DNA of 64,000 nt. Origin: Cenarchaeum symbiont of Oopsacas minuta (lineage in GTDB: Archaea; Thermoproteota; Nitrososphaeria; Nitrososphaerales; Nitrosopumilaceae). The stretch's first letter is position 1. The number at the start of each line of letters is the position of its first letter. This document shows positions 26,810 to 49,153 of this stretch, one piece after another. Under the pieces are notes generated by a model that did not search any database, was not told the DNA's origin, and saw only the letters and a program-made list of their open reading frames with translations. Location: positions 117,021-181,020 of the forward strand of contig JAJIZT010000001.1 of assembly GCA_029948415.1 (NCBI GenBank), in the 5' to 3' direction. A program made the position numbers and the translations under genes.

Positions 26810-29602
26810 TTACCAATCATTTTTCAAAGACGGCTTTTGTTTTCTTTTAATATGTAAAAATTGATATATTTTATGACGATAAATTGTATACATAATTACG
26901 CTAGTTATAACACCTGCAAGCACAATCATCAGACCACTATAATCTGTTTTGTATACAACACCACCGACAACATCAGAATTTGCTATAAATGATACTTGTT
27001 GTAAATCATCAACATTAACATTTTCCCAACTACTAAAAACTTCTCTAACCAAAAAAGAATAAACATCACGTGAGGGCGCAAATAAAATTACTGTGCTACC
27101 ATATGGATAAATACCAGCACCTTCAGCATTAGATACATTTATCCACACAACTCTATCATAATGCACAACAAGATTATTATCTGAATTTACAACAACATTC
27201 AAAGAACCATCTATATGATCAAGAGGCCGTTCCCCAAAAATTACATTTGATATTACATAATTATATCCATTAATAGTATGTTCTACTGGAAATTCAAGAT
27301 TAATTTGATCTGGCTTTATCTCCAAAACTTGTGGGGTTTGTATATTCTCATACAATTTGTTGTTTGATGATTGGATGCCCACCCCCAATTTTGTCCCATC
27401 ATTTCCGATAGCCTGTATATCCAACAAAACAATTTTTTTAACTGTAAGCACAAACTCAGCAACAGCTAGAGAATATCCTTCTTTTTTAGCAGTAAAAACA
27501 ATAGAAAATACCCCTTCACTATTTGGCGTAAACACAAACACATCATCTAGCATCTCTCTTACAGGCACAACTGAATCCACACCAACATCAATATCATCTA
27601 TGTCTGAACTGATCGTTACGGACACATTCTGACCTATTCTTGTCACTGCCAACGGCGGTAGCACATCAAAACGCATTTGATTGGTAAACAACTCTACATT
27701 GAACTTTGCTGTACCAAATGGAGCAAAAGCACTCATGCTTGTAGAATTCACATCATATATGATTAATCTTTGATCTTTTATTTGGGCGTTTCCAGTGACA
27801 GAATTTGGTTCTGCACGCGCTAATGGAATTCCATAAGGATCTATTTTATGCATAACAAATGGAATTTCTTCTGCAGCATGAACTTTTTCTGGAACATCAA
27901 ATTTAGCAGATACTACCGTTTGTGCAGGACGAATTTCACTATACGTCGGTTCCATGCCTTGCATTGAAGCTAGAACAAGCGAAACTTCATCAACTTTATC
28001 ATATAACACGACACAACTTTCTTTAACAAAAGTTAATTTTTTAGATACATCGTTGACGGTTACGGTAACTAGTGCACCTGAACCCAACGTTTCACTGACA
28101 TCTAATACTGCTCCATCTAAATCTACAACACAAATCATAGCTAGGGGCTGTTGTATACCAACAAATGTTGGTAAGGGAATTATCACAAGCTTGTACGTTT
28201 CTTTATATGGTGTTGTAGATGTTATCTTGGTTTGTGATCGTTCAAGATCAGGACCAGAAGCAAATATGTCATACGTACCAAAATTCTCGGCAACAATATC
28301 AAATTTTACCGCATGTAACATACGTCCATCAGTAACACCTCCATGCATAAGTATTGAATCTGAATGAACCAAACCAGTAGAAGAGAGAAGAACCGTTTGT
28401 CCATCTAGTTTTATCGGAGTTATTTTTTCGGCTATTACTTTACCCGATTTGATCTCTGGTGTTAAACCTGTAAAATTTTCTACTGTGGCATTGACACTTG
28501 AATATTCTATCGTATATAACGAAACAACTCCCACAAATTTATCCATGCCTACTTTAGGATAAGCCCACACTACAGCTATATTTGGCGACGATCCACTAAT
28601 TGTACTTACTAAAGACTCAGCTACTGTGTCTATTTTAGCAGAACCTACTATAAGGGAAGTTTGAGCTGATCCAAACCCTTGAACACTAGCTGATATTACC
28701 GCCGAGCCAGCCTTGTGTGTGGATATTTGCTTAAACCCGACCCCATCGATCATTGAAATTCGTGCTACATCCTCACGCGCAGATCCTAGAAATTTTTTAA
28801 TTCTTACTACATCTGTATTGCTAGAAGAGATCTGTACATCCACCACACGTGGAGGTTTGAACGGCTTGCCATCTTTTTCAAACCAAACTACCAACAACAC
28901 TTCAGAGTTTTCCATGGCTATTGCAGGCGCTATTGCCATTTTGATTATTATTTGATTTTGTTGTTTTACAATTTCATGTTCTCCATGTTTCAAATGTAAC
29001 GCATTTGCAAATACCATGCCAGTTCCACGTACATCGACCTCAAATTTTGCATAATGCGTACCAGCAAGGATAGTTATCGAGTTTGGAACAAATATAGATC
29101 CAGAAGAGTCTAGAAAAACCTCAATGTTTGCATCTGCCAAAACAGGAACTCCATTATCATCTGTTATTATAACAAACCCCGTAGCAGTTTTAGCTCTAGT
29201 TATATTTGATAAAATTATCTCTAATTTATGTGGCTTTCCTCCAGTAGAATAGATCTGTGATGTTGTTTTAATCACATTACCATCAACTTCCACATACAGT
29301 GTTACGTTTCCGTCTCTATATGGTGTAATTTTGAATATTCCATGATTTGATCCAGGAAGTATCGTTACAGAAACATCCGCAGTTATTTTAGACGAATCTT
29401 CTAAATTCAAAGAAAAAACTCCACCAGAAGGTTCTTCTAATACCAACACGCCCTCATAAGTAATACCTTGTATCATCTCGGGTGGTATCCAAAGATATGC
29501 TTCTTCTGCCAAGGCAGATTGGTTGATCACACCAAATCCAAACACAACAAACACAATATACAATGCAAATTGATTCCATTGTATAGATAATGGCAAAGGC
29601 AT
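26810..29602 (-). CDS. Large exported, C-terminally anchored surface protein
   Basis: 930 residues. A signal peptide (about 10-32, ending QSALAEE) leads into a long run of beta-sandwich, Ig-like or bacterial-Ig-like modules with repeated phrases such as TVTVNDVS, DVTVSI-like strands and NVTLYVEVDGN. Near residue 890 a single transmembrane helix (LMIVLAGVITSVIMYTIYRH) and a basic tail anchor it in the membrane, leaving some 850 residues outside. It is the last gene of the tadC-virB6-like operon, two bases after the adhesin gene. Likely an adhesin or a surface scaffold of the pilus machine. Confidence 0.7.
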   Translation of the reverse strand: MPLPLSIQWNQFALYIVFVVFGFGVINQSALAEEAYLWIPPEMIQGITYEGVLVLEEPSGGVFSLNLEDSSKITADVSVTILPGSNHGIFKITPYRDGNVTLYVEVDGNVIKTTSQIYSTGGKPHKLEIILSNITRAKTATGFVIITDDNGVPVLADANIEVFLDSSGSIFVPNSITILAGTHYAKFEVDVRGTGMVFANALHLKHGEHEIVKQQNQIIIKMAIAPAIAMENSEVLLVVWFEKDGKPFKPPRVVDVQISSSNTDVVRIKKFLGSAREDVARISMIDGVGFKQISTHKAGSAVISASVQGFGSAQTSLIVGSAKIDTVAESLVSTISGSSPNIAVVWAYPKVGMDKFVGVVSLYTIEYSSVNATVENFTGLTPEIKSGKVIAEKITPIKLDGQTVLLSSTGLVHSDSILMHGGVTDGRMLHAVKFDIVAENFGTYDIFASGPDLERSQTKITSTTPYKETYKLVIIPLPTFVGIQQPLAMICVVDLDGAVLDVSETLGSGALVTVTVNDVSKKLTFVKESCVVLYDKVDEVSLVLASMQGMEPTYSEIRPAQTVVSAKFDVPEKVHAAEEIPFVMHKIDPYGIPLARAEPNSVTGNAQIKDQRLIIYDVNSTSMSAFAPFGTAKFNVELFTNQMRFDVLPPLAVTRIGQNVSVTISSDIDDIDVGVDSVVPVREMLDDVFVFTPNSEGVFSIVFTAKKEGYSLAVAEFVLTVKKIVLLDIQAIGNDGTKLGVGIQSSNNKLYENIQTPQVLEIKPDQINLEFPVEHTINGYNYVISNVIFGERPLDHIDGSLNVVVNSDNNLVVHYDRVVWINVSNAEGAGIYPYGSTVILFAPSRDVYSFLVREVFSSWENVNVDDLQQVSFIANSDVVGGVVYKTDYSGLMIVLAGVITSVIMYTIYRHKIYQFLHIKRKQKPSLKNDW

Positions 29603-29603
29603 T

Positions 29604-32261: not shown

Positions 32262-32283
32262 ACATTATAAAATAATATTTAAT

Positions 32284-33159: not shown

Positions 33160-33189
33160 TTTAAAGCCAAAAACACGGTAATATTCGAA

Positions 33190-33570
33190 TCAACATTTGC
33201 GTTCAAATCCTCTACATGCGCTAGTTTTGGTAAAACCGTCACTGTAATTCATTTCCTTTGACCAATCTAAATTTATTTTTCTTATTTGATCCATGGCAGA
33301 CTTGGCATCTTTTTTTACAGTAATCTGATATTTCCACCTTGAACCATCGTGGTCATCCCAAACTACTAGTATGTGATTTATGTCCACGTATGTAATACTC
33401 TTAATATCTGACCAACGCGGCGATAAAATTATGCCATCTAATTTTGTTTTATATATTATGCCAAGATTTGTCACACACAATACTGTACCAATTTTTGTTG
33501 GTTTATCATTGGACGTCCATAACACTACTTCACATTCATCCTTTTTTAGATCCATATGATTTGTAGACAT
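33190..33570 (-). CDS. PH/GRAM-like domain protein
   Basis: 126 residues, cytosolic. The strand pattern VLCVTNLGIIYKTKLDGIILSPRWSDIKSITYVDINHILVVWDD ending in a helix (SAMDQIRKINLDW) is that of a bacterial PH/GRAM-type domain. The N-terminal half of the gene at 58848-59564 shows the same pattern (VIIVTNFGLAVHTRKTGAIL...). It lies between the VirB6-like and exported genes of the secretion operon and may be a membrane- or protein-docking subunit. Confidence 0.6.
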   Translation of the reverse strand: MSTNHMDLKKDECEVVLWTSNDKPTKIGTVLCVTNLGIIYKTKLDGIILSPRWSDIKSITYVDINHILVVWDDHDGSRWKYQITVKKDAKSAMDQIRKINLDWSKEMNYSDGFTKTSACRGFERKC

Positions 33571-33619: not shown

Positions 33620-34912
33620 CTACCTGTCGCTTCGTTTTAAATTAGAACGAATCAAAGTTTTCCTGTTGGATGCATAACCTACTCTGTCACTTATATTTTG
33701 GTATGCCATAACTCCTTTTTGTAACGCAAAACTGCCTAAATGTATAATAGAGCTCGTACCTGCATGTGCAGCAAAACCTCCCATATTCGTCATTGATCGC
33801 GAAAATGTGTTTAACTGAGGAACTATGATTGTAGGCATAAATGCAATCAATGCTAGAACCGTAATAGACACAAACCACGAATGTAACGCATTTGGGATTT
33901 TACAATTTGGGGATGAATGAGGACTCTCACATGTAAAATCTGCTAGATATGCAGAACCTCCAGCAATTGCAAGTGCGGTAAATATGGGCAATAACAAAAG
34001 TGCCACCAACATATCTCGTATTTTATTAGACAGTTTTGTAAAATATGGCACGAGTCCGAGCATCTCGGTTATTGGAATTATGATCATAAAGACTCCCGTA
34101 AGGACGATCCTACCAGTTCCGACCATGATCATTGTAACCACGACCATTAGAACAAAAATGCCTCGAAAAAAGCTCAAAAATATATCTGTGAGTGTATCGG
34201 ATATAGGTTGATTATCTGGATGATGTGATGATTCTACTGGACATTTATCCTCCCATACAGATTCTGAATCTGTATGTGTGTTACCAGATAGCGTATTTAC
34301 TATCGTATCCCATGGGCTGTTTAAACCTGCAAAATGATCGGGTTTTACGTTGTCTATGCAATTATAACTAATGCCAGAAACTTTGGATAGTATGTACTCT
34401 GTGTGTTCGTACAAATATTCTGGCCCTGCTGGAGAAATTATCCAATGAGAGACCCCCTCTACCCCCGCAGCTGCTGTATCCCATACATATGGAAAAAACG
34501 TAAAAAAGAAAAGCATGATTATGGTTTTTGTAAATATGCGATATCCGGTACCAGAGCTTAGAAAACTTGCTTTTTCAAAAACCATGGATATGGCAGCCAT
34601 GCCAATACCTAGTCCCATGAGTGCGCCCCACACATTTCTAAGCTGTGAATATTTGGCAAATGCCGCATTACCGATCTCTTGACCATCTACTACTTGATAG
34701 TCAAACCTTGGAATTTCAGTAGTTAGATAAATTATGGAATCACTGAGAAGATCACTAAATTGTACAACTAGAGACACCATTGCTCCGATGGCAACTACTG
34801 CGCCGATCATAAGAAGACCTATTGCAAATCCCCTACGTCTTTTTCGTGCTGATTCAAATTTATTATGCATATGTGTTTCACTGTATACTAGTTGCATGTC
34901 TTTTAAGATCAT
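33620..34912 (-). CDS. VirB6/CedA-like polytopic membrane protein
   Basis: 430 residues with a short basic N-terminus and about seven hydrophobic segments (about 29-50, 95-112, 127-142, 250-270, 272-290, 300-325, 350-370), a long extracellular loop between the third and fourth (about 150-245) containing several cysteines, and a basic cytosolic tail SNLKRSDR. Topology and position beside TadC match VirB6/TrbL-type channel proteins of type IV secretion systems and CedA of archaeal DNA import. Sequence similarity at this level is not decisive. The start overlaps the tadC-like stop (ATGA). Confidence 0.6.
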   Translation of the reverse strand: MILKDMQLVYSETHMHNKFESARKRRRGFAIGLLMIGAVVAIGAMVSLVVQFSDLLSDSIIYLTTEIPRFDYQVVDGQEIGNAAFAKYSQLRNVWGALMGLGIGMAAISMVFEKASFLSSGTGYRIFTKTIIMLFFFTFFPYVWDTAAAGVEGVSHWIISPAGPEYLYEHTEYILSKVSGISYNCIDNVKPDHFAGLNSPWDTIVNTLSGNTHTDSESVWEDKCPVESSHHPDNQPISDTLTDIFLSFFRGIFVLMVVVTMIMVGTGRIVLTGVFMIIIPITEMLGLVPYFTKLSNKIRDMLVALLLLPIFTALAIAGGSAYLADFTCESPHSSPNCKIPNALHSWFVSITVLALIAFMPTIIVPQLNTFSRSMTNMGGFAAHAGTSSIIHLGSFALQKGVMAYQNISDRVGYASNRKTLIRSNLKRSDR

Positions 34913-36801
34913 AAACTAGTAGGATAATACGGCTCTGCCCAAATTGCTACGAATGTAATTGCAGATATGATGGCCAAATTTGACGTGTGCGTCATACCAA
35001 AATTCACAATTTTATTCATAAGTATACCCAATATAACGGAACTAAGGGCTATAGTGATGTTGATCAGATTCAAAAATTCTGGAGATGCCGAGAGTACCTC
35101 AAATGGCAGATAATTTGTTCCCACACCTTCTACCATAGAGTTGTTCTCAAACCATCCCTTTAACATCTTGGATATGTATACCATGATGAACGGATTTACA
35201 TACGCTAATATCCAAAATATTTGCAAGGCTGCCACCAACCCTTGCCGTTCATTTTTTATTTTGATCATATATCCAGTAAGTATTTCAAGGGATTGTGCAC
35301 TTACATTTCCCACTTTTTCCATTTTTCCTAGCATGAAAAACGTCATACGTCCAAGCCATGAACGCATTTTAACCGTCTCTAGAGTTTTATCATTACCATG
35401 TTGTATGCATTTTGAGAGTGGCGTTCCAAAATGCAGCTGTGAAGCAATTGAGGAAATTTTTTGATCAAATATATGATTGTATTTGCGGTTCTTGGCGAGC
35501 CGGTGTATGGCTACACTGATAGGATTTCCTATCTTTCTAGACTCTGTAATATCACGTAGAAAATCTCCCAACGCTGTATTAGTGGCTTTTATTTCTACAA
35601 CCGCCGTAAAAGTCAATAACGTATTTGTAAGTGCAAGAAACAGCACACCAAGTACCATTGTAGCCCATAACTGACCCAAAACAAAATATCCAAATATGAC
35701 TCCGACTGCTCCTATAGGCACAGATAATAGATTAAATTTTACATTATCTGCAAATTTGGGCTGTACAGAATCGGCCATCATGTATATGATCACGCCAGCA
35801 ACTGGCAACATGATAAACATGAGTGTAGTGAGCGAAGAGAGCACGTCAATAGTCATAATGAACATGCCTGCCACAAGGAATATTGGCATCATGGAAAATA
35901 TTGCGTTTGTTAATATGGCCAAACTCTTTGCTTGTTCTTCATACCTATGAAATCTCGATTTTAATTGGGAGAACAAATCTTCCGTTGTTTTTTCCAAATA
36001 ATTAACAAGATCTCCTCCGTCTTTGTATATGGATACATATCCGACAAACAGGTTACGTAACATCTGATTTGGGTGTTCAAGTGCCCTTTTATTGACCACA
36101 TCTAGAGGATTTTCTGGAAAAAATCCCACATCACGAGACAGTAAATCTGCTTCTTTTTCTATATGCGGCAAAAGTTTTGACCCACGTATTCCAGATATTA
36201 TATCAATCAACGATCCTCCGATCGTTTGTAACACCCATGCGTATATAGAAAAAAATGCCACTTCATCACCGATCTTTATTTTACGTTCAGAAATTAATAC
36301 CATTAATTTGATCTTTGGCCATATCAAAACAATTGGAATAATAATAATCGTTAGCAGTAAGATTGGTTGTTCAAAATAAATCCATAACAAAATAGCTATA
36401 GGTACACCTAGCGCAAAAATTAACATCATTCTTCCTAAATTTTTAGCTGTCTCAATATGTGAATCCATAGCAATACCTGCTGTACGTATGTCAGAATGTA
36501 TCAGCATTGATAATTTTTGTGAAAGATATGAAGCATGTTTATTTTTTACAAGTGATGAATACCACACGTTTTCATCAGGTACTTTTGTATGACTATCTAA
36601 CAACATTTGAATGCGGATTTTTTTATGATAAAACCAGCTATACAAAGCTGTATTGTAAAATAACACCAACATTACAATTGTTGTTATTAAAAATACCATA
36701 AACAGCATCAACTGGCCTGATGCTATGGATGTCCATAATACGATAAGCATGATGGTAATTAGAACCACTCGATAGTTTCTATTCCAAATTTCTAATTGCA
36801 T
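34909..36801 (-). CDS. tadC: TadC/FlaJ-type pilus assembly platform protein (double domain)
   Basis: 630 residues from the ATG at 36801; an upstream ATG at 36864 would overlap the divergent pilin gene. Two T2SSF-type halves are visible: helices around 10-60, a cytosolic helical bundle with GGSLIDIISGIRGSKLLPHIE and DGGDLVNYLEKTTEDL, then more membrane segments and a second bundle with RDITESRKIGNPISVAIHRL and GTPLSKCIQHGND, closing with further helices. Archaeal FlaJ/TadC-like proteins work with a FlaI/TadA ATPase to assemble type IV pilus-like filaments. The matching ATPase is at 47711-49153. Confidence 0.82.
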   Translation of the reverse strand: MQLEIWNRNYRVVLITIMLIVLWTSIASGQLMLFMVFLITTIVMLVLFYNTALYSWFYHKKIRIQMLLDSHTKVPDENVWYSSLVKNKHASYLSQKLSMLIHSDIRTAGIAMDSHIETAKNLGRMMLIFALGVPIAILLWIYFEQPILLLTIIIIPIVLIWPKIKLMVLISERKIKIGDEVAFFSIYAWVLQTIGGSLIDIISGIRGSKLLPHIEKEADLLSRDVGFFPENPLDVVNKRALEHPNQMLRNLFVGYVSIYKDGGDLVNYLEKTTEDLFSQLKSRFHRYEEQAKSLAILTNAIFSMMPIFLVAGMFIMTIDVLSSLTTLMFIMLPVAGVIIYMMADSVQPKFADNVKFNLLSVPIGAVGVIFGYFVLGQLWATMVLGVLFLALTNTLLTFTAVVEIKATNTALGDFLRDITESRKIGNPISVAIHRLAKNRKYNHIFDQKISSIASQLHFGTPLSKCIQHGNDKTLETVKMRSWLGRMTFFMLGKMEKVGNVSAQSLEILTGYMIKIKNERQGLVAALQIFWILAYVNPFIMVYISKMLKGWFENNSMVEGVGTNYLPFEVLSASPEFLNLINITIALSSVILGILMNKIVNFGMTHTSNLAIISAITFVAIWAEPYYPTSL

Positions 36802-36846
36802 AAAGTAAAAAAAGACCTTTTTATTTAATGCGAATTTTTTGTTATA
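36802..36846. promoter_or_regulatory. Short divergent promoter between tadC-like and pilin genes
   Basis: Only 45 bases separate the two opposed ATGs. The stretch contains TTTTTATTTAATG on the plus strand and TTAAATAAAA on the minus strand, so one AT-rich block can serve as TATA element in both directions. This would co-regulate the platform operon with the pilin and PrgI-like genes. Confidence 0.4.
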
Positions 36847-37305
36847 ATGAATACAAAATATCATCTAAAACGAAGAAAGGCAGGAAGTCAGATTTTAGCT
36901 GCTGCTATATTGATGGGAATAGCAATTTCCGCTGCAGGCGTGTATGCATCTGGAATAATGGATCAGATAAGCGTCACTACTCAAAACTCTCGAATTAGCG
37001 TACAACACGTTGGAATAATTCAAGATGATAATGAAAATGAATGGTTTGCAGCTACAATCAAAAATGAAGGAAGTGTGGTAATAGATCAGATCAATATAAC
37101 AATACAGATTGATAACATTACCGTAAAGTATTACATAACAGATAATGTAAAACCAGGTCGAAGTGTCATACAAGAACTAGTCCAAATCTTAGGCGATGGA
37201 AACTCTCCTGCCGTAAGCATAGGAGAGTCGGTTCCGGTGGAATTTCGAGCAATTTCTCTAGATGGATCCATATTTAGCAAAATAGAGTCGGTTCGTATAT
37301 CATAA
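36847..37305 (+). CDS. Type IV pilin/archaellin-like protein
   Basis: 152 residues. The N-terminus has basic residues then the class III signal KRRKAGSQ followed by a long hydrophobic helix (ILAAAILMGIAISAAGVYA), the form cleaved by FlaK/PibD-type prepilin peptidase. The mature part is beta-rich (FAATIKNEGSVVIDQINITI). It is divergent from the tadC-like gene, 45 bases apart, and precedes a PrgI/VirB3-like gene, so it is likely a filament or minor pilin subunit of the same machine. Confidence 0.75.
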   Translation: MNTKYHLKRRKAGSQILAAAILMGIAISAAGVYASGIMDQISVTTQNSRISVQHVGIIQDDNENEWFAATIKNEGSVVIDQINITIQIDNITVKYYITDNVKPGRSVIQELVQILGDGNSPAVSIGESVPVEFRAISLDGSIFSKIESVRIS

Positions 37306-37339: not shown

Positions 37340-37999
37340 ATGGTTACATTATCCGATCTGAAGGATCTTTTATGGTTTGAAAATATTACTCCTCACAACG
37401 AATCGATGTTTCCAATCTTAGGTTTTGGTACGTTGAGTATTAAGCAGCTTGGAATATTGGGAGCTGGCATCATGTTTACATGGAGCCTATGGCAGAAAAC
37501 AGGAGATTATTTAGCAGTCATTCCAGTCGTAATAGCTTTGATACTAGTAGTTAAAAAAGAGAATGTTATTCCCATAGAGATAAAGATTATCAAAATACTT
37601 TTGTTTCATATTAGAAAGCAGGATAATGTTACACCAAAAAACAAACCCTCAATAAAAAATAATTATAAATCCAATTCAAAACTCTCAATAGCAAAACAAT
37701 ATCGCGTTAAATCATCCAATAGGCAGAATTTTATCAAAGAAACAAACGTGAGAAATATTCCATACATATATGATAGGATGTTTAGAATGAAAATACGTTT
37801 AGATAATGCTAAACAGATGGCAGTCAACTCTCGCGTTAAAATAGTTCTAGATGATGTTTTGTATGAAACGGCTTGCCCTAATAGTAACAATGAAATCGTG
37901 GTAAATTTTATACCAAAATATCCTGGCAAAAACCTGCTTCAAGTATATGCAGATGATACTGAACCCATATATGAAGAAATATTGAATTTTATCAGATAA
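37340..37999 (+). CDS. PrgI/VirB3-like membrane protein with C-terminal beta domain
   Basis: 219 residues. Residues about 28-95 show the PrgI/VirB3 pattern: a GFGTLSIKQLGILGAG helix, a short turn, a second helix (AVIPVVIALILVV), then KKENVIPIEIKIIKILLF. In type IV secretion systems VirB3/PrgI contacts the VirB4 ATPase at the inner membrane. A basic linker (about 97-145) and a C-terminal beta-sandwich-like domain (RVKIVLDDVLYETACP... NLLQVYADD) follow. It is next to the pilin gene. The assignment is by pattern only. Confidence 0.55.
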   Translation: MVTLSDLKDLLWFENITPHNESMFPILGFGTLSIKQLGILGAGIMFTWSLWQKTGDYLAVIPVVIALILVVKKENVIPIEIKIIKILLFHIRKQDNVTPKNKPSIKNNYKSNSKLSIAKQYRVKSSNRQNFIKETNVRNIPYIYDRMFRMKIRLDNAKQMAVNSRVKIVLDDVLYETACPNSNNEIVVNFIPKYPGKNLLQVYADDTEPIYEEILNFIR

Positions 38000-38050: not shown

Positions 38051-39616
38051 TTATTCGTTTACGTATGCTTGTTCGCCGTGCTGTGCAAGATCAAGACCAA
38101 TCTCCTCTTCTTTGGGAGTGACCCTGATTCCGCCTGGCCATACAGCATCCATGACTTTGAGAATAACAATAGTTACGCCAAATGCGTAGCCTACTGATAT
38201 CGCAGCGCCAATGATGCTGATAGCTTGTTGCTCGTAGCCTTCTGGGGTTCCAGTCCATGCACCAATACCGTCACCGGTATCCCAAATGTGTGGACTAGCT
38301 AGTGTGCCAGTAAGAATGGCGCCAGTAAGGCCTCCCATTCCGTGTATTCCCCAAACATCTAGTGCATCGTCCCATTTACGTGCGTTCTTGAAAGCGATAC
38401 ATCCGTAACAAATTGTGCTTGCGGCTATGCCGATTATGATCGCGCCCATAGGTCCAACCCAACCAGATGCTGGTGTAATTGCCACCAATCCAGCTACTGC
38501 ACCTGATGCGGCTCCTATGATGCTTGGTTTACCTGTGTTGGCCCAACTCATAAGCACCCATGTTACAGCTGCAACGCCAGTGGCTGTGTTTGTTACCACC
38601 CACGCGCTTACAGTAATTCCGTCAACCATCACTTCGCTTCCTGCGTTAAACCCGAACCAGCCGAACCAGAGTATAGATGCACCAAGTACCACCATTGGTA
38701 TATTGTGTGGTTCCATTGGAACTTTTCCATATCCGAGTCTGCGACCGAGTACTAGGGCTCCCGCCAAAGCGGAGAATCCGGATGAAATGTGTACGACAGT
38801 ACCTCCAGCAAAGTCTAATGCATATGATGGTGATAGATCTGGATCTAGGTCAAGAGCGCCTCCTCCGATATATCCGCCACCCCATACCCAGTGGGCAATA
38901 GGATCGTAGACGAATGTACCCCATAGGAGAACAAATATCACTAGCGCGCTGAATTTTATCCTGTCAATCAAACCTCCAACAATTAGTGCTGGTGTTATGA
39001 TTGCAAACGTACCTTGGAACGCTGCAAAGAGCGCGTGTGGTACGGTGCCAGGCCAGCTATCACTACAAGCTTCTTCAGATTTCATTTGTTGCATTTGATA
39101 TGCATTTGACCAAATGTCCCCGTCACATGCTGTTGGGGCTCCGAGTGGTGCATAGTGTGAAACTTGATTGAATCCGACATAGTCTAGAGCGCCCATGAAC
39201 ATATTGGCATCATTGTCAATTGGACCAAACGAGAGGGTGTAACCCCATGCGACCCATTGCCAAGCCATAATGCCCATAATGATAAACGTCATTCCAATGA
39301 CATTTACTGCGTTCTTTGATCTTGCAAGACCTCCGTAGAAGAATGCTACACCAGGAGTCATAAACAATACCATTGATGTTGCAGTTAACATCCATGCAGT
39401 ATCACCTGTATCGATATAACATGCAGTAAACGTACCATCGTTATTATCTACCCAACATTCTTGGGGATTGCCAGTGTAAATTCCAGAAGTGCCTTTAACA
39501 TATCCGTCCATTCCATCGTTAATGCTTTGTGCGTATGCAGTAGACATTACACCTGATGATGTAATAGCCACTGCGGCTACAAGTAGTAGAGCATACTTGT
39601 GGTTTTTATTTCTCAT
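38051..39616 (-). CDS. amt: Ammonium transporter (Amt/MEP/Rh family)
   Basis: 521 residues from the ATG at 39616, chosen because a TATA box lies about 25-30 bases upstream and it gives a standard signal peptide (ALLLVAAVAITSSGVMSTAYAQ). An extracellular segment then carries two cysteines (PQECW, ACYIDTG), followed by eleven helices. Amt landmarks include MTPGVAFFYGGLARSKN, ILWFGWFGFNAGSE and WGIHGMGGLTGAILTG with the twin pore histidine area. It brings NH4+/NH3 into an ammonia oxidiser for assimilation or sensing. No GlnK gene is adjacent. Confidence 0.93.
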   Translation of the reverse strand: MRNKNHKYALLLVAAVAITSSGVMSTAYAQSINDGMDGYVKGTSGIYTGNPQECWVDNNDGTFTACYIDTGDTAWMLTATSMVLFMTPGVAFFYGGLARSKNAVNVIGMTFIIMGIMAWQWVAWGYTLSFGPIDNDANMFMGALDYVGFNQVSHYAPLGAPTACDGDIWSNAYQMQQMKSEEACSDSWPGTVPHALFAAFQGTFAIITPALIVGGLIDRIKFSALVIFVLLWGTFVYDPIAHWVWGGGYIGGGALDLDPDLSPSYALDFAGGTVVHISSGFSALAGALVLGRRLGYGKVPMEPHNIPMVVLGASILWFGWFGFNAGSEVMVDGITVSAWVVTNTATGVAAVTWVLMSWANTGKPSIIGAASGAVAGLVAITPASGWVGPMGAIIIGIAASTICYGCIAFKNARKWDDALDVWGIHGMGGLTGAILTGTLASPHIWDTGDGIGAWTGTPEGYEQQAISIIGAAISVGYAFGVTIVILKVMDAVWPGGIRVTPKEEEIGLDLAQHGEQAYVNE

Positions 39617-39635
39617 TGATCTGAAAAATCTGATC

Positions 39636-39650
39636 TGTATATTTAAAACT
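39636..39650 (-). promoter_or_regulatory. TATA element of amt
   Basis: On the minus strand GTTTTAAATATACAG lies about 23-34 bases before the amt ATG. The spacing places transcription start at or a few bases before the start codon, a leaderless mRNA as usual for thaumarchaea. Confidence 0.5.
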
Positions 39651-39697
39651 TGATACAACTAATCGCTAAAAAGAATAAATATTATATAATACAGTTT

Positions 39698-39712
39698 TAT
39701 GATAGTATCATA
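39698..39712. promoter_or_regulatory. 15-base perfect palindrome, possible operator
   Basis: TATGATAGTATCATA is a perfect 15-base inverted repeat centred on G39705. It lies between amt and the divergent gene at 39749, near where the plus-strand transcript should begin. A dimeric regulator could control either gene from it. No regulator is identified. Confidence 0.4.
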
Positions 39713-39748
39713 TAATGAAAAAATTAACATACGTACGTGTTGGTAGTC

Positions 39749-40420
39749 ATGACTGAGAATACAGATGCCCTGGCCATATTTGATACATTCAAGACGAAGA
39801 GCATGGATTTGACGGCCAAAGCCATACGCCAAAGGGCGATAATATCTGCCTTGACAGGCAACGTCAACTCTGCAGAGAAGACTAGAACTGCCATAACACG
39901 TAGAATTACAGGAAGTAAAGAATGGAAAAATACCTATTCTGGAGTGTTTTTAGATATTGAAAGAGTCCTAATTCCATTGGGGTTTGTGCAAGAAGAGGGC
40001 AGAATGCCACTAAAACGTGGACCTAAAGCACTTCAAGAAAAAGGAGTGCCATATTACAAGCTTACAAGAAAGGGATCCATTGTGGCTATGGCCTTGAATG
40101 ACACCTCTAATGTAGATGCAGTGCTTGCTGAATGTTTTACTGATATGGTTAAAGAAGAAGAGGAAATAAAAAATACAATAAATATGTTATATGAGATATC
40201 TCCAAAACTAGTACGTTATCTTTTTGAAAAATATGTACGAGCGTACTGTAAGGGAAAATTCGAGGATCTTTTACCCATGAATTCTTCTAGATTTAGTGGA
40301 AATGACGAATTTATGATCATATTGGAAGAATTTCTAACTAATATACCAAAAACAAGTAAAGGCGACACCACAAAGATTCACAACGTGATCCGACAACTCT
40401 TAGATCAAGCCATACATTAA
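39749..40420 (+). CDS. Conserved-looking cytosolic protein, possible regulator
   Basis: 223 residues from the ATG at 39749 (GTG at 39737 also in frame). The first 120 residues resemble a winged-helix arrangement (AKAIRQRAIISALTGNVNSA, then YYKLTRKGSIVAMAL). The rest is helical and acidic with a basic strip. Divergent from amt with a 15-base palindrome between, it might sense nitrogen status, but it could equally belong with the ATP synthase subunit gene 26 bases downstream. Function not recognised. Confidence 0.55.
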   Translation: MTENTDALAIFDTFKTKSMDLTAKAIRQRAIISALTGNVNSAEKTRTAITRRITGSKEWKNTYSGVFLDIERVLIPLGFVQEEGRMPLKRGPKALQEKGVPYYKLTRKGSIVAMALNDTSNVDAVLAECFTDMVKEEEEIKNTINMLYEISPKLVRYLFEKYVRAYCKGKFEDLLPMNSSRFSGNDEFMIILEEFLTNIPKTSKGDTTKIHNVIRQLLDQAIH

Positions 40421-40446
40421 AATCAGTTGTTGATACTTGGTTAAAT

Positions 40447-41493
40447 ATGGCATCGGGAACACAGAAAATGAAAATATATTCTGCTGTAAAATCCTACAGT
40501 CAACGTGGAAATCTTTTATCAAAGGGAGATCTACAGGCCTTTGCAGAATCAAGAAACCTTGACGAATTACTTACTAGAATAAAAAATACTAGATATGCCA
40601 ATACCCTTGGAAAAATTGTGGCTCCGATAACAGCCGAAATGTTAGAATCAGCATTACGTGTGCATTTAGCAGATATACATTACTCAATTTATAAAACCTC
40701 TGGAGAGCCTGCACTGAAAACATATTTTATGAAATTTATGATATGGAATCTAAAGATAATACTAAAAGGTAAGATCTTGGGAAAAACACAAGAAGAGTTG
40801 GAATCAAAATTAAACCTTCACGCAGAAGAGCTCATATCGCAGCGCGATATAGTGTTAAAAGCACTTGTTGCAAAAGATCTAGATGAAGCCGTTATCAATC
40901 TCTCAGAAACTGTTTTTGGTAAAGATATAGAGAAAGCCGTAACCGCATACAACGAATCAGGTAACATACAGGTATTTGATACGTTCTTTGATAAAGTGTT
41001 AACACGACAGCTTGCTCAATATAGTAGAAAAACTTCAGACAGATATCTGTACACACTCATATCGATGGATATTGATTTTTACAATATACTAAGCGTTATC
41101 AGAGGACGGTTTTGGGGATTAGATCCAGAACGAATACGCGAACTAATCGAAGGAAAGACCGCCAGTGTTTCACAAGCATTACTGGATCGAATGATCAACG
41201 CCGCTACGGTAAAAGATGCGTTTACAGAACTATCTACAACACGTTACCGACACCTTGTGTCACAAAAAGAGAATGACATGGAAGCAATATCTGAATTTGA
41301 AAGAAACTTTGAGATGGCAATATACAAATCCGCTTTAAACACGTTTACTAGAATGTTTAGCCCATCTACAAGCGTAGGAATTACAAAGCTAACCGGATAT
41401 GAGATAAGAAACATTGCTGCAATAGCCTTTGGTATAGAACAGAAAATACCTGCAACAGTCATCATGTCAAAATTGATTGTGGATCAAGAATGA
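40447..41493 (+). CDS. atpC: A-type ATP synthase subunit C
   Basis: 348 residues. The all-helical V-type subunit C/d (AC39-like) fold connects the rotor central stalk to the membrane ring. The pattern YSAVKSYSQRGNLLSKGDLQ at the start and repeated three-helix units with conserved aromatic/charged residues (FWGLDPERIRELIEG, YEIRNIAAIAFGIEQKIP near the end) match archaeal AtpC. Other ATP synthase genes are not in the window. It overlaps the next gene by four bases. Confidence 0.85.
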   Translation: MASGTQKMKIYSAVKSYSQRGNLLSKGDLQAFAESRNLDELLTRIKNTRYANTLGKIVAPITAEMLESALRVHLADIHYSIYKTSGEPALKTYFMKFMIWNLKIILKGKILGKTQEELESKLNLHAEELISQRDIVLKALVAKDLDEAVINLSETVFGKDIEKAVTAYNESGNIQVFDTFFDKVLTRQLAQYSRKTSDRYLYTLISMDIDFYNILSVIRGRFWGLDPERIRELIEGKTASVSQALLDRMINAATVKDAFTELSTTRYRHLVSQKENDMEAISEFERNFEMAIYKSALNTFTRMFSPSTSVGITKLTGYEIRNIAAIAFGIEQKIPATVIMSKLIVDQE

Positions 41494-41744
41494 CTATAGA
41501 TTCAAGAGGCGTAACTCTAGAAGTTTTGTTACGGCTAATTTGGGTAAGCACAATACTTGCCATGATATTTGTCTTGCCTGCATTGGGACTTTTTTATATC
41601 ATATATGAAATATCGGGAAATCTAATTGTAGGTATTATCGCAGGAGTTGCTCTACATTTTGTAATTCTTGCATTTTCACCAAAGATCTCTACTTGGATTA
41701 CCTCATGGCTGACTGAGCTCAAACCGTCGGAGAGCAACAGCTAA
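41490..41744 (+). CDS. Small two-helix membrane protein after atpC
   Basis: 84 residues with two long hydrophobic helices (about 10-38 and 44-65) and a polar C-terminus. It lacks the mid-membrane glutamate of a proteolipid c subunit, so it is not AtpK. Overlap with atpC (ATGA) and immediate abutment to the Cas4-like gene put all three in one transcript. The function is unknown; an accessory membrane factor is possible. Confidence 0.55.
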   Translation: MTIDSRGVTLEVLLRLIWVSTILAMIFVLPALGLFYIIYEISGNLIVGIIAGVALHFVILAFSPKISTWITSWLTELKPSESNS

Positions 41745-42386
41745 ATGATGGGTGATCGAGACTATCGTAGTCTCATAAGAAGAGTGATTGACGCGATAGG
41801 CAAAGAAATTGAAATAAATATTGATGTGTCAGATAATGATAAAATTGGAATACATGAAATAACTGGGTGTATACGACGTGCATATTTTAACAGAATAGAT
41901 CCTCTCGAATACAAACATCAAAATTTTGGCGAACTCTCAGTAGGATTGTTACATAAATTACATTACGGTACAAAAAAAATTGAATTTGACATGGACGGAA
42001 TTAAATTGATTGGTAATGCAGACATGATCATAGATGATGCTATAATAATATTCAGATCTACAATAAAGACTATGGAAAATCCACTAGCTGCAGATATGAT
42101 TTATCTAAACGCTTGTCTGTGGATGTATAACAAAAACGATGGCATAATTGTTTACATAACAACTGACGGACAAGAATCTTCATTTTCACTAACTAGAAAC
42201 AAATCCATGTTTGAAGAAACTGCAAGACGTGTGAGAATATTACATAATCTATTGGTCGAAAAAAAATTACCAATATTAGAACCGTCTTCAGAGTGTTCTA
42301 CGTGCCAATATTATCAAAGATGTTATATGAAACAAAAGATAGGAAAAACTATAACTATCAGTGATATCATGGGAATGAAAAAATAA
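41745..42386 (+). CDS. Cas4/RecB-like protein with iron-sulfur cysteines but degraded active site
   Basis: 213 residues. Cysteines C42 (ITGCIRRAYF), C184, C187 and C193 (CSTCQYYQRC) match the four [4Fe-4S] ligands that enclose the nuclease core in Cas4, AddB and Dna2. H70 in GLLHKLHYG and D93 in GNADMI match nuclease motifs, but the E-x-K catalytic pair appears as I102-x-R104 in AIIIFRST, so cleavage activity is doubtful. There is no CRISPR or cas gene nearby, and it follows atpC and a membrane-protein gene. It may bind DNA without cutting it. Confidence 0.7.
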   Translation: MMGDRDYRSLIRRVIDAIGKEIEINIDVSDNDKIGIHEITGCIRRAYFNRIDPLEYKHQNFGELSVGLLHKLHYGTKKIEFDMDGIKLIGNADMIIDDAIIIFRSTIKTMENPLAADMIYLNACLWMYNKNDGIIVYITTDGQESSFSLTRNKSMFEETARRVRILHNLLVEKKLPILEPSSECSTCQYYQRCYMKQKIGKTITISDIMGMKK

Positions 42387-42400
42387 CGTTTTGTCCGAGT

Positions 42401-44734: not shown

Positions 44735-44744
44735 AGCGTACCAT

Positions 44745-45176
44745 CTATGGAAGATCTATGTCTATTACGTTGGTATTGGAGGTAAGAATTTGCATTGTGT
44801 TTGCTCCATTAGATGCGTCTACTCTAACAAGTTTTTTTACAGGCATGATTGCATCATAAATCTTTTGTATTCTGCCCTGTGAATCATATTCATATATTGT
44901 ATACGAGGCGTTTACTGAATCTATTCTTACTTGATCAATTGTTATGGGCGATGATCCATAATTTATCACCTGTACAGAAGCAGGATCATTGGAAGTGCTG
45001 ACCACTTGCACCAACTCTGAGATCCGTCCCTGGTAATCATTTACCGCATCCCGTACTGTGACTTTGCCACCGTAAACAAGATCAGCAGAACTCTCCATGG
45101 TTATACCCATAGCTATAGTCAATACAGCACCTATGGCTATTATTCCAAATATTTCGCTGCTTGCACGTCTTTTCAT
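44745..45176 (-). CDS. Pilin-like protein with class III signal
   Basis: 143 residues. MKRRASSEIFGIIAIGAVLTI has the basic start, small residue and hydrophobic helix of archaeal class III signal peptides, so prepilin peptidase cleavage is likely. The exported part (VQVINYGSSPITIDQVRID) is beta-rich and ends in a hydrophobic stretch. Its start overlaps the previous pilin-like gene by four bases. Confidence 0.7.
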   Translation of the reverse strand: MKRRASSEIFGIIAIGAVLTIAMGITMESSADLVYGGKVTVRDAVNDYQGRISELVQVVSTSNDPASVQVINYGSSPITIDQVRIDSVNASYTIYEYDSQGRIQKIYDAIMPVKKLVRVDASNGANTMQILTSNTNVIDIDLP

Positions 45177-45586
45177 ACTGCGTCCACAGTCGCCTGTACA
45201 GAAAGCTCTGAACCATCAGCCGATCTAGCATTTACATATAGAACATACCTACTATTCTTATCAATCTGCGCTTCAACAAAATGTTGTTCTTTCCATGACT
45301 CTCCTGGATTAATGTGTCCTATAGGAGTAATGTTTGTGACAGTTCCTACATCATCACGAAAGGACAAATCTGCTGACATGAGTGTGGACGTGCCAGTATT
45401 TACTATTGTAAATGCAATAAACGCTTTTTGTGCACCATAAAGTTCTCGCAGTTGGATTGACGCTATCTGCATATTTGATTGTAACGCCTGCACACGTGCT
45501 TGTTCTATTAAAGAAGATCCAGTTATGGTTGCAGCTGCACTTGCAATTATGATGAGCATTGTAGCTGCAACAAATTTTGATGTCAT
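45173..45586 (-). CDS. Pilin-like protein
   Basis: 137 residues from ATG 45586, which overlaps the stop of the 89-residue gene upstream. The longer frame from 45643 is unlikely because it lies inside that gene. MTSKFVAATMLIIIASAAATITG is a short basic start and long helix as in pilins, followed by a beta domain (AFIAFTIVNTGTSTLMSADLSF) resembling archaellin-type strands. It sits between the VirB4 and exported-protein genes. Confidence 0.65.
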   Translation of the reverse strand: MTSKFVAATMLIIIASAAATITGSSLIEQARVQALQSNMQIASIQLRELYGAQKAFIAFTIVNTGTSTLMSADLSFRDDVGTVTNITPIGHINPGESWKEQHFVEAQIDKNSRYVLYVNARSADGSELSVQATVDAV

Positions 45587-45852
45587 TTCTTTGATCTCTT
45601 TTTTGTATGTGCAGGAAGCATCACTGGTCCTTGCAATACACATCTGTCTGTTTTATTGTCGATAACTCTTACATGATATAAAATACCTGATGGAGTTCGA
45701 GTCTTTTTGAGTAAATGTATGCTGTATTCTGATAATCGAATTATGGAATCTTCTGCTACGGCAGATATCATAGCGCCAAGTACTTCACGCCTCTGATGTA
45801 ACGTCTGGCATAGAACAAGAAAATTTTGTCTGTAGAGTGTTTTTAAATCCAT
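45583..45852 (-). CDS. Small cytosolic protein between virB4 and pilin genes, unknown
   Basis: 89 residues: a helical N-terminal half (about 5-40), then a beta-rich, basic C-terminus (SGILYHVRVIDNKTDRC) and a KKRSKK tail. No membrane segment. Both ends overlap neighbouring genes (one base with virB4, four with the pilin), so it is a fixed member of the operon, possibly an adaptor of the ATPase. Confidence 0.55.
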   Translation of the reverse strand: MDLKTLYRQNFLVLCQTLHQRREVLGAMISAVAEDSIIRLSEYSIHLLKKTRTPSGILYHVRVIDNKTDRCVLQGPVMLPAHTKKRSKK

Positions 45853-47666
45853 TATATCTTACCTCCTGTTGGATCCGTATTGAAAAGCCGTAATTCATCT
45901 GCAGATGGTCTTATCTGAGCGCGTATTCTGTATCCTTTGGTAAGTAATAATGCTTGACCTCTACTGAATGAAACAATCAACTCTACTTCCCTATCGGATA
46001 ACCCTAGTACTTTTTGAGTAAGATTTGCTGCATCAGGTTCGAGCCCTAGTATTATTTTTAGTCCAGAATTATTTGCAAATGCACGTCCGTATTGATTGGT
46101 TGTGATATCGTTTGGTTCCTGTGTGATGAATATTCCAATTGCATGATATGCCCTGCCCATTCTAGCAATCTCTTCTATTATGCGTGAAGTATTTTTTTTC
46201 TTAAAAAGTCTCCAACCCTCGTCAACAATGAGAATCTTTGGACATGATTGTTCGGCCATCCGTATGCTCTTCCATGCCTTGGCAAAAGCTAGTACGGTTA
46301 ATATCGAAACCATGGACGATGGTTTGTTTTTTAAAGAGATTACAGTTCTATGTCCAAATTCTTTGTCACCTCGTATGATTTTTTGCATATCTGTTGCCAT
46401 CAATCTTTGTACATATTTTGCACCCTTGCCATCAGAATCGAGCTTTTCATAAAGCTCAGCAACGCTATTACTATTCTCAGCAGCTGCAAGTATCTCGTTA
46501 CGTGTTGGGGCATCATCTTCGGCCACATCACATATGTCGGCTATAATATCAGCCGTATCGCCCACGTTACTAAATAGATGAAATGGATCCATGCCCATAG
46601 TTACATCACTTTCAGGATCTATCTCGTCAAGATTCCACTTACTAGCTGGATATTCTCCCTTGGGGTCTACAATGAAAATCATTGAATCTGGATGAGCTTC
46701 TACAAGTCTAGTTAGTATGGTTTTTGCAGTAACTGATTTGCCTTTACCTACCCTAGCAAGTATCAAAACGTTATAACTGTCAAGCGTAGTATGATCCCAA
46801 ACTATAGGCGCGCCTGTGGTCATGTTTATTCCTAAACAGATGCCGCCAGGTGTTTCGATAAGATCAGATGATGCAAATGGGTAGAAAATATTTAGAGATC
46901 CAAGTTCTATGTAAAGCTGCTTTCCCCACCCATGGGATAACATGTCTCGTTGTTTTGTTGGAGTGGCATCCCATTTTGTCATGGTAGCTGCGCTGTGGAC
47001 ACGGAATTCTTTTTCACGTATCTTTAGATCCTCAAGCGTATTTGCTTGAATTAGCGCATTACATTCACATATGAACAGCTGTGTTACTTGCCTAGCTAAC
47101 GCATCCATGGTGGCAAGACCTTTTTCATATCTGTAAGCATGATCTGGCGATCGAAGTTTTGTGGCACCTAGTATGTTCACATATCTACGCATCTTTGTAA
47201 CCGCCTGATCATGAGGAATTGGCGTAAGTCTAATGGAGATCATCTCAGAATATCCTAGAACATTGTAAATCCAAGCTGGATACAGCTGGGATGGGAGTCC
47301 ATACAGGGTAAAGCATTTAGCAAAAGCACCATTATCAAGCTCTAGATAAGACTTACCAGAAACAACCGAGTGTTGTTCTTTCTTTATAGGATAAAATTCC
47401 CTATCCGATATCACGTGATGATCAAACCCGTTTAGATTGGTCTCCAAACTTATGGGACTAGTTACAAAAGTGCGAGGACGAACCAAATTTACATTCTCAT
47501 TACCCATTTGAACCGTAAGAGGTTCATTGATCATGGTGATGAGAGTTCTATTCCTAAGAGTACGTAAAAATCCCAAATATTTTGCCATAGCCTCCATCTT
47601 TTTCTCATCTGGAAGAGTTTCAAAATCCGTCGCGGCAACTTCATAGCAAAATCTTTGTTCTGTCAT
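45852..47666 (-). CDS. virB4: VirB4/TraC-like secretion ATPase
   Basis: 604 residues. The C-terminal P-loop domain has Walker A ARVGKGKS at 304-311, the region IFIVDPKGEYPASKW (330-344), Walker B KILIVDEGWRLF at 477-488 and ITQEPNDI (514-521), all typical of VirB4/CagE-type and CedB-like ATPases. The N-terminal 270 residues are the VirB4-type domain. VirB4 powers substrate transfer and pilus biogenesis in type IV secretion systems. It is translationally coupled to the small gene downstream and 44 bases after the TadA/VirB11 gene. Confidence 0.85.
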   Translation of the reverse strand: MTEQRFCYEVAATDFETLPDEKKMEAMAKYLGFLRTLRNRTLITMINEPLTVQMGNENVNLVRPRTFVTSPISLETNLNGFDHHVISDREFYPIKKEQHSVVSGKSYLELDNGAFAKCFTLYGLPSQLYPAWIYNVLGYSEMISIRLTPIPHDQAVTKMRRYVNILGATKLRSPDHAYRYEKGLATMDALARQVTQLFICECNALIQANTLEDLKIREKEFRVHSAATMTKWDATPTKQRDMLSHGWGKQLYIELGSLNIFYPFASSDLIETPGGICLGINMTTGAPIVWDHTTLDSYNVLILARVGKGKSVTAKTILTRLVEAHPDSMIFIVDPKGEYPASKWNLDEIDPESDVTMGMDPFHLFSNVGDTADIIADICDVAEDDAPTRNEILAAAENSNSVAELYEKLDSDGKGAKYVQRLMATDMQKIIRGDKEFGHRTVISLKNKPSSMVSILTVLAFAKAWKSIRMAEQSCPKILIVDEGWRLFKKKNTSRIIEEIARMGRAYHAIGIFITQEPNDITTNQYGRAFANNSGLKIILGLEPDAANLTQKVLGLSDREVELIVSFSRGQALLLTKGYRIRAQIRPSADELRLFNTDPTGGKI

Positions 47667-47710
47667 TAGTTACTAAAAATGCATATTCATATAAGGCAAA
47701 TATTCTAGAT

Positions 47711-49153
47711 CTACAAGTGCATATTAGAAAGCATCTTTGTCACATCTGTAGGACTGGAGATCTTTTCTCGTATGCATATATCTAACAGATTTATTCTCCT
47801 TGAGAGATCTTTTGATGCATCAACGCCAAATTTTTCTGCAACATCATGTACTCTACTACTTTTAACTAAAATATCTTCTATGCATTCTGTGTCGTAACGA
47901 TCATCAGAAGACAAGTATTTGAATAACGGTTTGATTTCAGGTTCATTTAAACCAGGTGTGATCTCATCTATACGCAATATCTTGCGCTGTATTTTTTTAC
48001 CGCATCTTATCTCTCCCAAATGCACCATAAACCACAAAAGTACTAACTGGTTGCGACTCAGACCAATCTCTCTGTCAGTTAAACGCACCCGTGCATACTC
48101 TGGACTTTCTGCATGAAATGTGGCCATTCCTCCATGCCCAGTAGCAGCAATATCAAATAACGAATGTACTTCTCCACCATTACGCACTTCACCAAGAACT
48201 ACAAAATGAGGCTGCATGCGTAATGCTTCGTAATTTAATCTTTGAAGATCTATTGCAAATTTTTCATTTTCATAGTCCTCTCTAGTCACAAGTCGTTTCC
48301 ATCGTTTGTGTGGTATCTGTAGTTCTGGCATATCTTCGGCCGTAACTATAATCCATTTTGGATGACATAAGAACATCAGTGCGTTAAGTACTGTAGTCTT
48401 GCCTGCACTAGTTGATCCTACTAGTATGCCAAAAGCACGCGCATCAATCATCATCCATAGATATGCTGCTTGTAGTTTTGTCATAGTACCATTTCTTATC
48501 AAATCCACAATGGTTAAAGGAACATTGGTAAATTTTCTTATAGATATTATCGGACCAGGCAGTGAAACTTTGTCATCATATGTAATGTGCATTCGATGTC
48601 CTTCTGGAAGGCGCAAATTTCCAAATGGTTTGGCATCAGAAACCGTCTTGTGATTACGCAACATGACACTCTGCACAAATGCATTCATGTTTTCCTTTGT
48701 ACCAAATGACAGATTTGTGTCTAGTACAGGATATTTCCAGCTTTTGTATGCTCGATGTACTATTCCTACATCTGCATCAAATCGTTCACATGTAATGTCT
48801 TCTACTTTATCATCTTGCATAGGAACATCAAGTATACCATATCTGAGAATATCCCGCTCTAGACGATACCTTAATCCTCTATAACATTTTTTTATTTTGT
48901 CTGTTTGTCCGATCAAGCTAGCACGTCGCCATATGTTTTCTTCTATGTATGCTATTGGATCTCTAGACTCTTTGAGTGGTGCAAGCGACTGATACATGTG
49001 TATGAGCATCTCACGGTATATCTTTTCACCCTCGAAAGTTAATGTAGGTTCATCTACAATGTATTTACCGTCGTTTGTTATGGTAACATTAGATTGGCCT
49101 ACTTTATATCTACTAATAACTTGAGCATCAGGAAGTCTGATAGATCTGTTCAT
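47711..49153 (-). CDS. tadA: TadA/FlaI/VirB11-type secretion ATPase
   Basis: 480 residues. GSPE-family hexameric ATPase with Walker A GSTSAGKT at 246-253, the Asp box ITAED-like VTAEDMPELQIP (270-281), Walker B FVVLGEVRNG (317-326) and His box HGGMATFHAES (340-350). The N-terminal ~200 residues form the docking domain. This superfamily includes FlaI, TadA and VirB11. It pairs with the TadC-like protein 11 kb away and the VirB4-like protein next to it. A conserved folded element lies just upstream of its start. Confidence 0.88.
   Translation of the reverse strand: MNRSIRLPDAQVISRYKVGQSNVTITNDGKYIVDEPTLTFEGEKIYREMLIHMYQSLAPLKESRDPIAYIEENIWRRASLIGQTDKIKKCYRGLRYRLERDILRYGILDVPMQDDKVEDITCERFDADVGIVHRAYKSWKYPVLDTNLSFGTKENMNAFVQSVMLRNHKTVSDAKPFGNLRLPEGHRMHITYDDKVSLPGPIISIRKFTNVPLTIVDLIRNGTMTKLQAAYLWMMIDARAFGILVGSTSAGKTTVLNALMFLCHPKWIIVTAEDMPELQIPHKRWKRLVTREDYENEKFAIDLQRLNYEALRMQPHFVVLGEVRNGGEVHSLFDIAATGHGGMATFHAESPEYARVRLTDREIGLSRNQLVLLWFMVHLGEIRCGKKIQRKILRIDEITPGLNEPEIKPLFKYLSSDDRYDTECIEDILVKSSRVHDVAEKFGVDASKDLSRRINLLDICIREKISSPTDVTKMLSNMHL

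Follow-up and report, generated by a model that had tools for sequence, protein, structure and literature searches.

The window analyzed here, a stretch of 64,000 nucleotides from the Cenarchaeum symbiont of Oopsacas minuta, contains 17 open genes for a type IV pilus, for proteins resembling parts of a type IV secretion system (T4SS) and for associated exported and small proteins, arranged in three blocks that span 33 kb with core genes in between (Table 1). With a probability that we put at about 0.57, these genes represent the conjugation apparatus of an integrative and conjugative element (ICE) that became a resident chromosomal machine and would work in DNA exchange in a similar manner as Ced and Ups. 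The scattered position of the blocks without linked mobility parts suggests that the host cell has co-opted the machine. The gene content of the blocks, their dispersal, the failure to find a linked mobility gene and purifying selection on the homologous genes in a related genus form the basis of this reading. The window genome (G000; 1.63 Mb, 11 contigs) is the sole genome of its genus in our comparison set, and the gene content of loci in relatives was read within the stretches fetched.

Components of the pilus and of the secretion apparatus

The original prediction, made by a model from the sequence alone, described a pilus/T4SS chimera split over two operons. All open reading frames (ORFs) that it named are present, but the system comprises three blocks instead of two operons. 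The overlooked third block (58115–59609) was found via the neighbors of PrgI genes in relatives. On the pilus side, the predicted TadA-type ATPase was confirmed by matches to the archaellum ATPase model (8.8e-72), Pfam T2SSE (1.2e-24) and the PDB entry 2oap (2.4e-48), and the double TadC-like platform by NCBIfam UpsF (1.2e-61). The full ORF of the platform extends over 34909–36864; with the start chosen originally, 36801, it does not run into the divergently oriented pilin gene PilC. The three pilin-like proteins match UpsA (PilC, 3.5e-8; PilA, 1.7e-4) and UpsB (PilB, 2.3e-6), and PilC additionally matches Pfam Arch_flagellin (1.5e-4). By reading the sequence, we recognized the class III signal of PilC and a probable start of PilA at ~45583 rather than 45643. 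None of the Ups models reached its curated cut-off in the window (UpsF 209 of 400 bits, UpsA 33.7 of 130, UpsB 27.7 of 70). Four large exported proteins had been announced and four are present, although the fourth (32284–33159) has merely 291 aa. Apart from EXP3 and the VirB6-like protein, which are shorter, the window genes have family-like lengths. Paralogous loci with TadA, an UpsF-like platform, pilins and an EXP1-like protein (L084–L088, L092) occur in G099, G105, G121, G206, G017 and G137, and no VirB4, VirB6 or PrgI match was found in the stretches fetched for these pilus-only loci.

On the secretion side, the predicted VirB4-like ATPase was recovered with Pfam AAA_10 (3e-16) and the VirB4-like PDB entry 4ag5 (4.8e-11). 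VirB4-type NCBIfam models matched with E-values down to 1.3e-23, below their cut-offs, and outscored the models of the Ced ATPases (CedB 28 bits against a cut-off of 700, CedD 26 against 600). The GxGKS and DE positions are invariant against seven homologs. The assignments of the VirB6- and VirB3-like proteins are weak and come from their families, the window proteins alone giving no convincing match. Three of 13 members of the VirB6 family match Pfam TrbL/VirB6 (best 9.3e-4), whereas the window protein has no Pfam match; for the PrgI-like family, 11 of 13 members match Pfam PrgI (best 5.1e-5), with a weak 0.062 for the window protein itself. Both predictions have sequence support at the family level. 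The VirB3/PrgI-like family (A2) has a C-terminal beta domain, which weakly matches macroglobulin MG4 in five of 13 members (best 1.3e-4).

The VirB6-like protein has 430 aa in the window compared to 573–617 aa in VirD4-linked loci. The C-terminal tail is clear in g9-type ICEs and marginal in G037 and G053 (E 0.14 and 0.29; both left out of the hidden Markov model, HMM). The idea that the tail disappears along with VirD4 was considered and rejected, as G001 has VirD4 yet no tail.

Pil2 of the third block is a VirB2-like candidate, because its homologs in relatives adjoin VirB3-like genes and its family carries a T4SS_pilin signal. More family members match T4SS_pilin than any other Pfam model (8/18 members, best 1.5e-5), and TrbC/VirB2 is matched by 2/18 (best 0.037); the window member itself matches neither. 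A VirB2-like protein is already credited to ICE-2 of Nitrosocaldus in the accessible text of PMC5797428. The structure model of Pil2 is a helical hairpin (mean pLDDT 79, pTM 0.52), a plain shape for which Foldseek returned nothing from the PDB at E ≤ 0.001. No CedA or CedA1 model was among the profile matches of the VirB6-like protein and Pil2, and sequence and profile searches of the PDB with Pil2 and the Pil2, VirB6 and PrgI families yielded no T4SS chain. A PHROGs search with ten window proteins gave matches for the two ATPases only, and VirB4 relatives were found in 0/75 candidate stretches of viral contigs.

Mobile relatives, dispersal and selection

A scan of genome contigs identified at least 19 loci. 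In G096, one contig carries within ~47 kb an integrase, VirD4, EXP1–EXP4, PilB, a second pilin, SMb, VirB4, TadA, TM115, Pil2, PrgI, PilC, UpsF, VirB6, two 58848-type proteins and a ParB-TFIIB-like pair. All 17 window genes have counterparts there, PilA via a second PilC-type match and SMa via a second 58848-type match. By its genes, the G096-type set is a thaumarchaeal ICE conjugation module, and homologs of its VirB4, VirB6, VirB3, TadC, FlaI and pilins occur together in the window (VirB6 and VirB3 at the family level). The same mobility markers accompany a subset of the system genes in G168. G080 has an integrase and VirD4 without a TFIIB-ParB match, G146 has VirD4 and TFIIB-ParB without an integrase match, G081 contains two copies with VirD4, and one locus of G037 and the G053 locus have VirD4 and TFIIB-ParB (TFIIB-ParB labels in relatives were assigned by us).

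Pilus, channel and exported proteins thus belong together, and the presence of the same families in one G096 element indicates that their association in the window is more than chance. This supports the prediction of one machine made of pilus and T4SS parts. Its reading as an unusual chimera was rejected, as the mixture is seen in G096 and is already published for thaumarchaeal ICEs, according to the accessible text of PMC6563490. Unusual is the state of the copy in the window, which is dispersed and has no linked mobility genes. The blocks mostly occur together elsewhere: among 200 genomes searched, 10 of the 12 with UpsF (E ≤ 1e-60) also had VirB4 (E ≤ 1e-100). The exceptions are G193 and G134; in G193, platform, VirB6 and PrgI are present with no VirB4 match. 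In G105, VirB4 is present and part of the VirB4 block is lost.

For the gene-order comparison, eight relatives were fetched out of 40 genomes matching the Cas4-like gene. The order Amt-unknown-AC39-TM-Cas4-LEA-small-IPK-HD-tmk is unbroken in seven of them, and G001 keeps only the Amt-to-Cas4 part, which is thus conserved in 8/8. In the window, block 2 splits Cas4 from LEA. Block 1 sits between Amt and the group of DP1, Orc1 and the 26392 gene, which is contiguous in 7/7 relatives fetched and located ~64–99 kb from Cas4 in six of them and 345 kb in G001. Block 3 lies upstream of ribE, a gene found in 26/26 genomes and preceded by system genes in two, G000 and G073 (VirB4 in the latter). This shared riboflavin site was discarded as proof of common descent, as G085, which adjoins G073 in the riboflavin tree, lacks system genes there.

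In the window, marker HMMs detected neither a separate VirD4 nor a separate TraG2, and they revealed no TFIIB-ParB pair of the ICE type and no genuine integrase; none of these markers was found in the flanking 20 kb to the left and 40 kb to the right either (123 kb in all). The one integrase HMM used gave 12.9 bits to the chromosomal TFB, probably a zinc-ribbon cross-match; the TFB of the window (18570–19478) has no ParB neighbor. Direct repeats of ≥22 nt bracketing a block were absent from 25800–62500. Family-wide profile counts of VirB4 and VirD4 were taken over 250 genomes of the family; ICE-type VirD4 at E ≤ 1e-10 occurs in 21 of these and not in G000. With core genes between the blocks and no integrase or coupling ATPase in the window, the predicted resident rather than mobile character was right in tendency.

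Scattered system genes are also present in two species of the genus g17, G073 and G099. In G073, the order is w58848-SMa-VirB6-TM115-Pil2-PrgI-PilC-UpsF-TadA-VirB4, riboflavin cluster, PilA-PilB-EXP4, EXP3, EXP2-EXP1; the set spans ~39 kb with other genes, including core genes, interspersed, and no mobility marker was matched in 80 kb. In G099, the genes from EXP2 to VirB4 form one block; EXP3-PilA-PilB-EXP4 lies on the same contig at a distance of ~715 kb, flanked by core genes and at the same site as in G105. EXP1 was not located in G099, and neither type of coupling ATPase was found in its genome. In G144 and G134, the system genes lie on short contigs.

Between G099 and G144, dN/dS was 0.08–0.20 in seven system genes, at dS values of 0.9–1.5 that are near saturation (ribE dS 0.73). 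Between G099 and G105, it was 0.09–0.24 in five system genes, with dS of 0.15–0.21 compared to 0.18–0.21 in three core genes. The low dN/dS (0.08–0.24 across 12 gene comparisons) and the match of dS to that of core genes in the closer pair indicate that the g17 system genes are constrained and, in this pair, as old as the divergence of their hosts. In the VirB4 tree (n = 38), G000, as a long branch, forms one group with G187, G073, G144, G099 and G105, which adjoins the group with G037/G053 and g9/g6 elements; a clade excluding G187 was not rejected (p-AU 0.41). The branching of G073, G144, G099 and G105 agrees with that of the riboflavin genes, for which the G073 copy groups within g17.

Table 1. 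System genes of the window and the core genes between the blocks
Feature	Position	Strand	Block	Remarks
EXP1, exported surface protein, 930 aa, C-terminal membrane anchor	26810..29602	-	1	No Pfam family above cut-off; homologs in ICE loci of G096, G080, G081 and in G073, G144, G187
EXP2, exported protein, 885 aa	29604..32261	-	1	HMM 1.8e-95; homologs in G096, G080, G081, G073, G099, G187
EXP3, exported protein, 291 aa	32284..33159	-	1	Homologs adjoin PilA-PilB-EXP4 in G099 and G105; others in ICE loci
SMa, small protein	33190..33570	-	1	Paralog of 58848-59609 protein; HMMs cross-match at 2e-12 and 7e-24
VirB6/TrbL-like polytopic membrane protein, 430 aa	33620..34912	-	1	Predicted DNA channel
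UpsF-like double TadC/T2SSF platform	34909..36864	-	1	Start probably 36801; NF046075 1.2e-61
PilC, type IV pilin, class III signal	36847..37305	+	1	UpsA-like
VirB3/PrgI-like protein with C-terminal beta domain	37340..37999	+	1	
Core genes: Amt transporter, unknown, A-ATP synthase AC39 subunit, small membrane protein, Cas4-like	38051..42386			Between blocks 1 and 2
EXP4, exported protein, 719 aa	42575..44734	-	2	Homologs adjoin VirB4/VirB6 in G037 and G053 loci; also in ICE loci
PilB, type IV pilin	44745..45176	-	2	UpsB-like; NF046074 2.3e-6
PilA, type IV pilin	45173..45643	-	2	UpsA-like; NF046073 1.7e-4
SMb, small protein	45583..45852	-	2	Directly downstream of VirB4; position conserved in G187, G096, G080, G081, G136
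VirB4-type ATPase	45852..47666	-	2	
FlaI/TadA-type pilus assembly ATPase	47711..49153	-	2	
Core genes: LEA-like, small protein, IPK, HD hydrolase, tmk, riboflavin cluster	49298..58008			Between blocks 2 and 3
TM115, membrane protein	58115..58462	-	3	Adjoins VirB2/VirB3-like genes in relatives
Pil2, two-helix protein, 89 aa	58536..58805	-	3	Candidate VirB2/CedA1-type conjugative pilin
253-aa protein	58848..59609	-	3	Paralog of SMa; homologs adjoin VirB6 in G096, G081, G168, G193, G073

Among the other genes of the window, the Cas4-like protein (41745–42386) reaches 21.6 bits in Pfam, just under the cut-off of 22.7, and its gene adjoins that of AC39 in 8/8 genomes of ammonia-oxidizing archaea (AOA) fetched. 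The interval from Orc1 to the 26392 gene contains a tandem duplication of 58 nt (26136–26254, 91% identical), perhaps near a replication origin. An exported protein at 59828–61531 contains a 96-nt repeat near its C-terminus, with copies 94% identical.

Alternatives to a resident machine

Several findings weigh against a resident machine. The genome of G000 contains a TrwB/TraG-family ATPase ~590 kb away (C1:762982–765600, L093 22–2643; TrwB_AAD_bind 4.4e-11, above the cut-off), which lies in an IS-rich island with several transposase-like genes (by eye). The predicted absence of a coupling ATPase consequently holds for the window and was rejected for the genome. In G187, a member of the VirB4 group of G000, a VirD4 fragment persists next to EXP1-EXP2 and an integrase is present as fragments; these remnants lie on contigs other than the one with VirB4. 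The system is patchily distributed: 43 of the 250 genomes of the family have VirB4 at E ≤ 1e-20. By eye, we also recognized a UvrD-like helicase ~4 kb away from the G073 set, a kind of helicase that is found in ICEs according to the accessible text of PMC6563490. In G105, the machine is partly deleted (TadA of 298 aa, no UpsF beside VirB4), and part of its selection signal may predate this loss. Constraint is stronger on the core genes used for comparison (dN/dS 0–0.06) than on the system genes, and the selection figures describe the g17 copies and not that of G000, which is the lone genome of its genus in our set. Moreover, the shared VirB4 group is supported at only 87/72, and the VirB6 and VirB2 assignments are weak family-level matches.

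Two of these loci have additional features. The N-terminal part of the G000 ATPase matches a separate neighboring gene in G073, and its C-terminal region resembles a restriction-type nuclease fold (by eye). At the G105 locus (C21; L146, L147), the genes from UpsF to PrgI are absent, and a restriction/defense-like island (by eye) and a TraG2-type ATPase are located in front.

The ICE remnants in G187, the lost parts in G105, the TraG-type ATPase in the IS-rich island of G000 and the patchy distribution would also fit an immobilized, decaying ICE that was split by rearrangements and lost its mobility genes while the remaining genes are still undegraded. We regard this as rather unlikely, given that all 17 window genes are open, that the dispersed copies in g17 are under purifying selection and that two g17 species combine dispersal with open genes. 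The unlinked ATPase could alternatively be the coupling protein of a conjugation system that is complete in trans and exports chromosomal DNA or that of other elements. G000 could use it in this way, given that both G000 and G073 have a single VirB4 match and a single TraG2-type ATPase; related ATPases are found ~4–15 kb from VirB4 in G206, G201 and G105. However, neither type of coupling ATPase was matched in G099, and the G000 enzyme lies among transposase genes and may belong to another element, which makes this explanation unlikely. It also appears quite improbable that pilus and exported proteins form an adhesion or surface-assembly machine, in which the VirB proteins would help to export these proteins and not DNA. 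The four exported proteins in the set and the pilus-only loci with an EXP1-like protein in six genomes would be consistent with attachment, but the latter show that VirB-type parts are unnecessary for such a pilus, and the same exported proteins are found in ICE loci, which are expected to transfer DNA.

Relation to known systems and significance

In a resident machine, the FlaI-type ATPase and the UpsF-like platform would assemble filaments of PilA, PilB and PilC, possibly with the large exported proteins, and this Ups-like pilus would draw cells together; the Ups pilus itself is UV-inducible and mediates cell aggregation. VirB4, held via the VirB3-like protein, would power the assembly of a Pil2 pilus and may also drive the passage of DNA through the VirB6 channel between cells. 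Assembly into one machine in G000, DNA as substrate, a direction of transfer and a benefit for the host are what we infer; the direction cannot be read from the sequence. Given the loss of linked mobility genes and the location of the blocks among core genes, the machine would serve the exchange of chromosomal DNA, in the manner of Ups and the DNA importer Ced in Sulfolobales. The missing linked relaxase and VirD4 need not disable it, because Ced is reported with homologs of VirB2, VirB4 and VirB6 only (PMC11868833) and no archaeal relaxase has been recognized (PMC9905601), as far as the accessible texts of both sources go.

With thaumarchaeal ICEs as described in the accessible texts of PMC6563490 and PMC5797428, the window shares VirB4, VirB6, VirB3, the TadC-type platform, the FlaI-type ATPase, pilins, the VirB2-like pilin and four exported proteins. 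Unlike in these ICEs, linked VirD4, integrase and TFIIB-ParB were not found, three blocks lie between core genes and VirB6 is shorter. The combination of a chromosomal Ups-type pilus with VirB2/VirB4/VirB6-type parts and no linked relaxase or coupling protein may resemble Ced and Ups of Sulfolobales, judging from the accessible parts of PMC11868833 and PMC9905601. In contrast to these, the window encodes a VirB4-type protein in place of CedB/CedD and additionally a VirB3-like protein, its VirB6- and VirB2-like proteins match no CedA or CedA1 model, and genes for pilus and channel occur in the same blocks. Ted of Thermoproteales, to which we can liken the system by description only, is likewise a set of VirB4, VirB6 and a VirB2-like protein described as a domesticated T4SS, whereas Ups-type pilus genes are not described for Ted in the accessible text of PMC9905601. 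We found no description of a dispersed, VirD4-free form in this family in a literature search that left out most subscription papers and preprints, which is not proof of novelty.

We tentatively propose, at somewhat less than even odds, that AOA domesticated a conjugative element as a resident machine for chromosomal DNA exchange, separately from Ced and Ted, with the Ups-like aggregation pilus and the T4SS channel originating from one ICE module. On this reading, the same family would keep mobile and resident forms, so that the transition from one to the other could be followed, and the resident form in mesophilic ammonia oxidizers together with its mobile kin would constitute a series from ICE to domesticated machine. 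The joint movement of pilus and channel as one module would give a reason for the cooperation of Ups pili and Ced in Sulfolobales, and the machine itself would provide a mechanism for chromosomal gene exchange in ammonia-oxidizing archaea.

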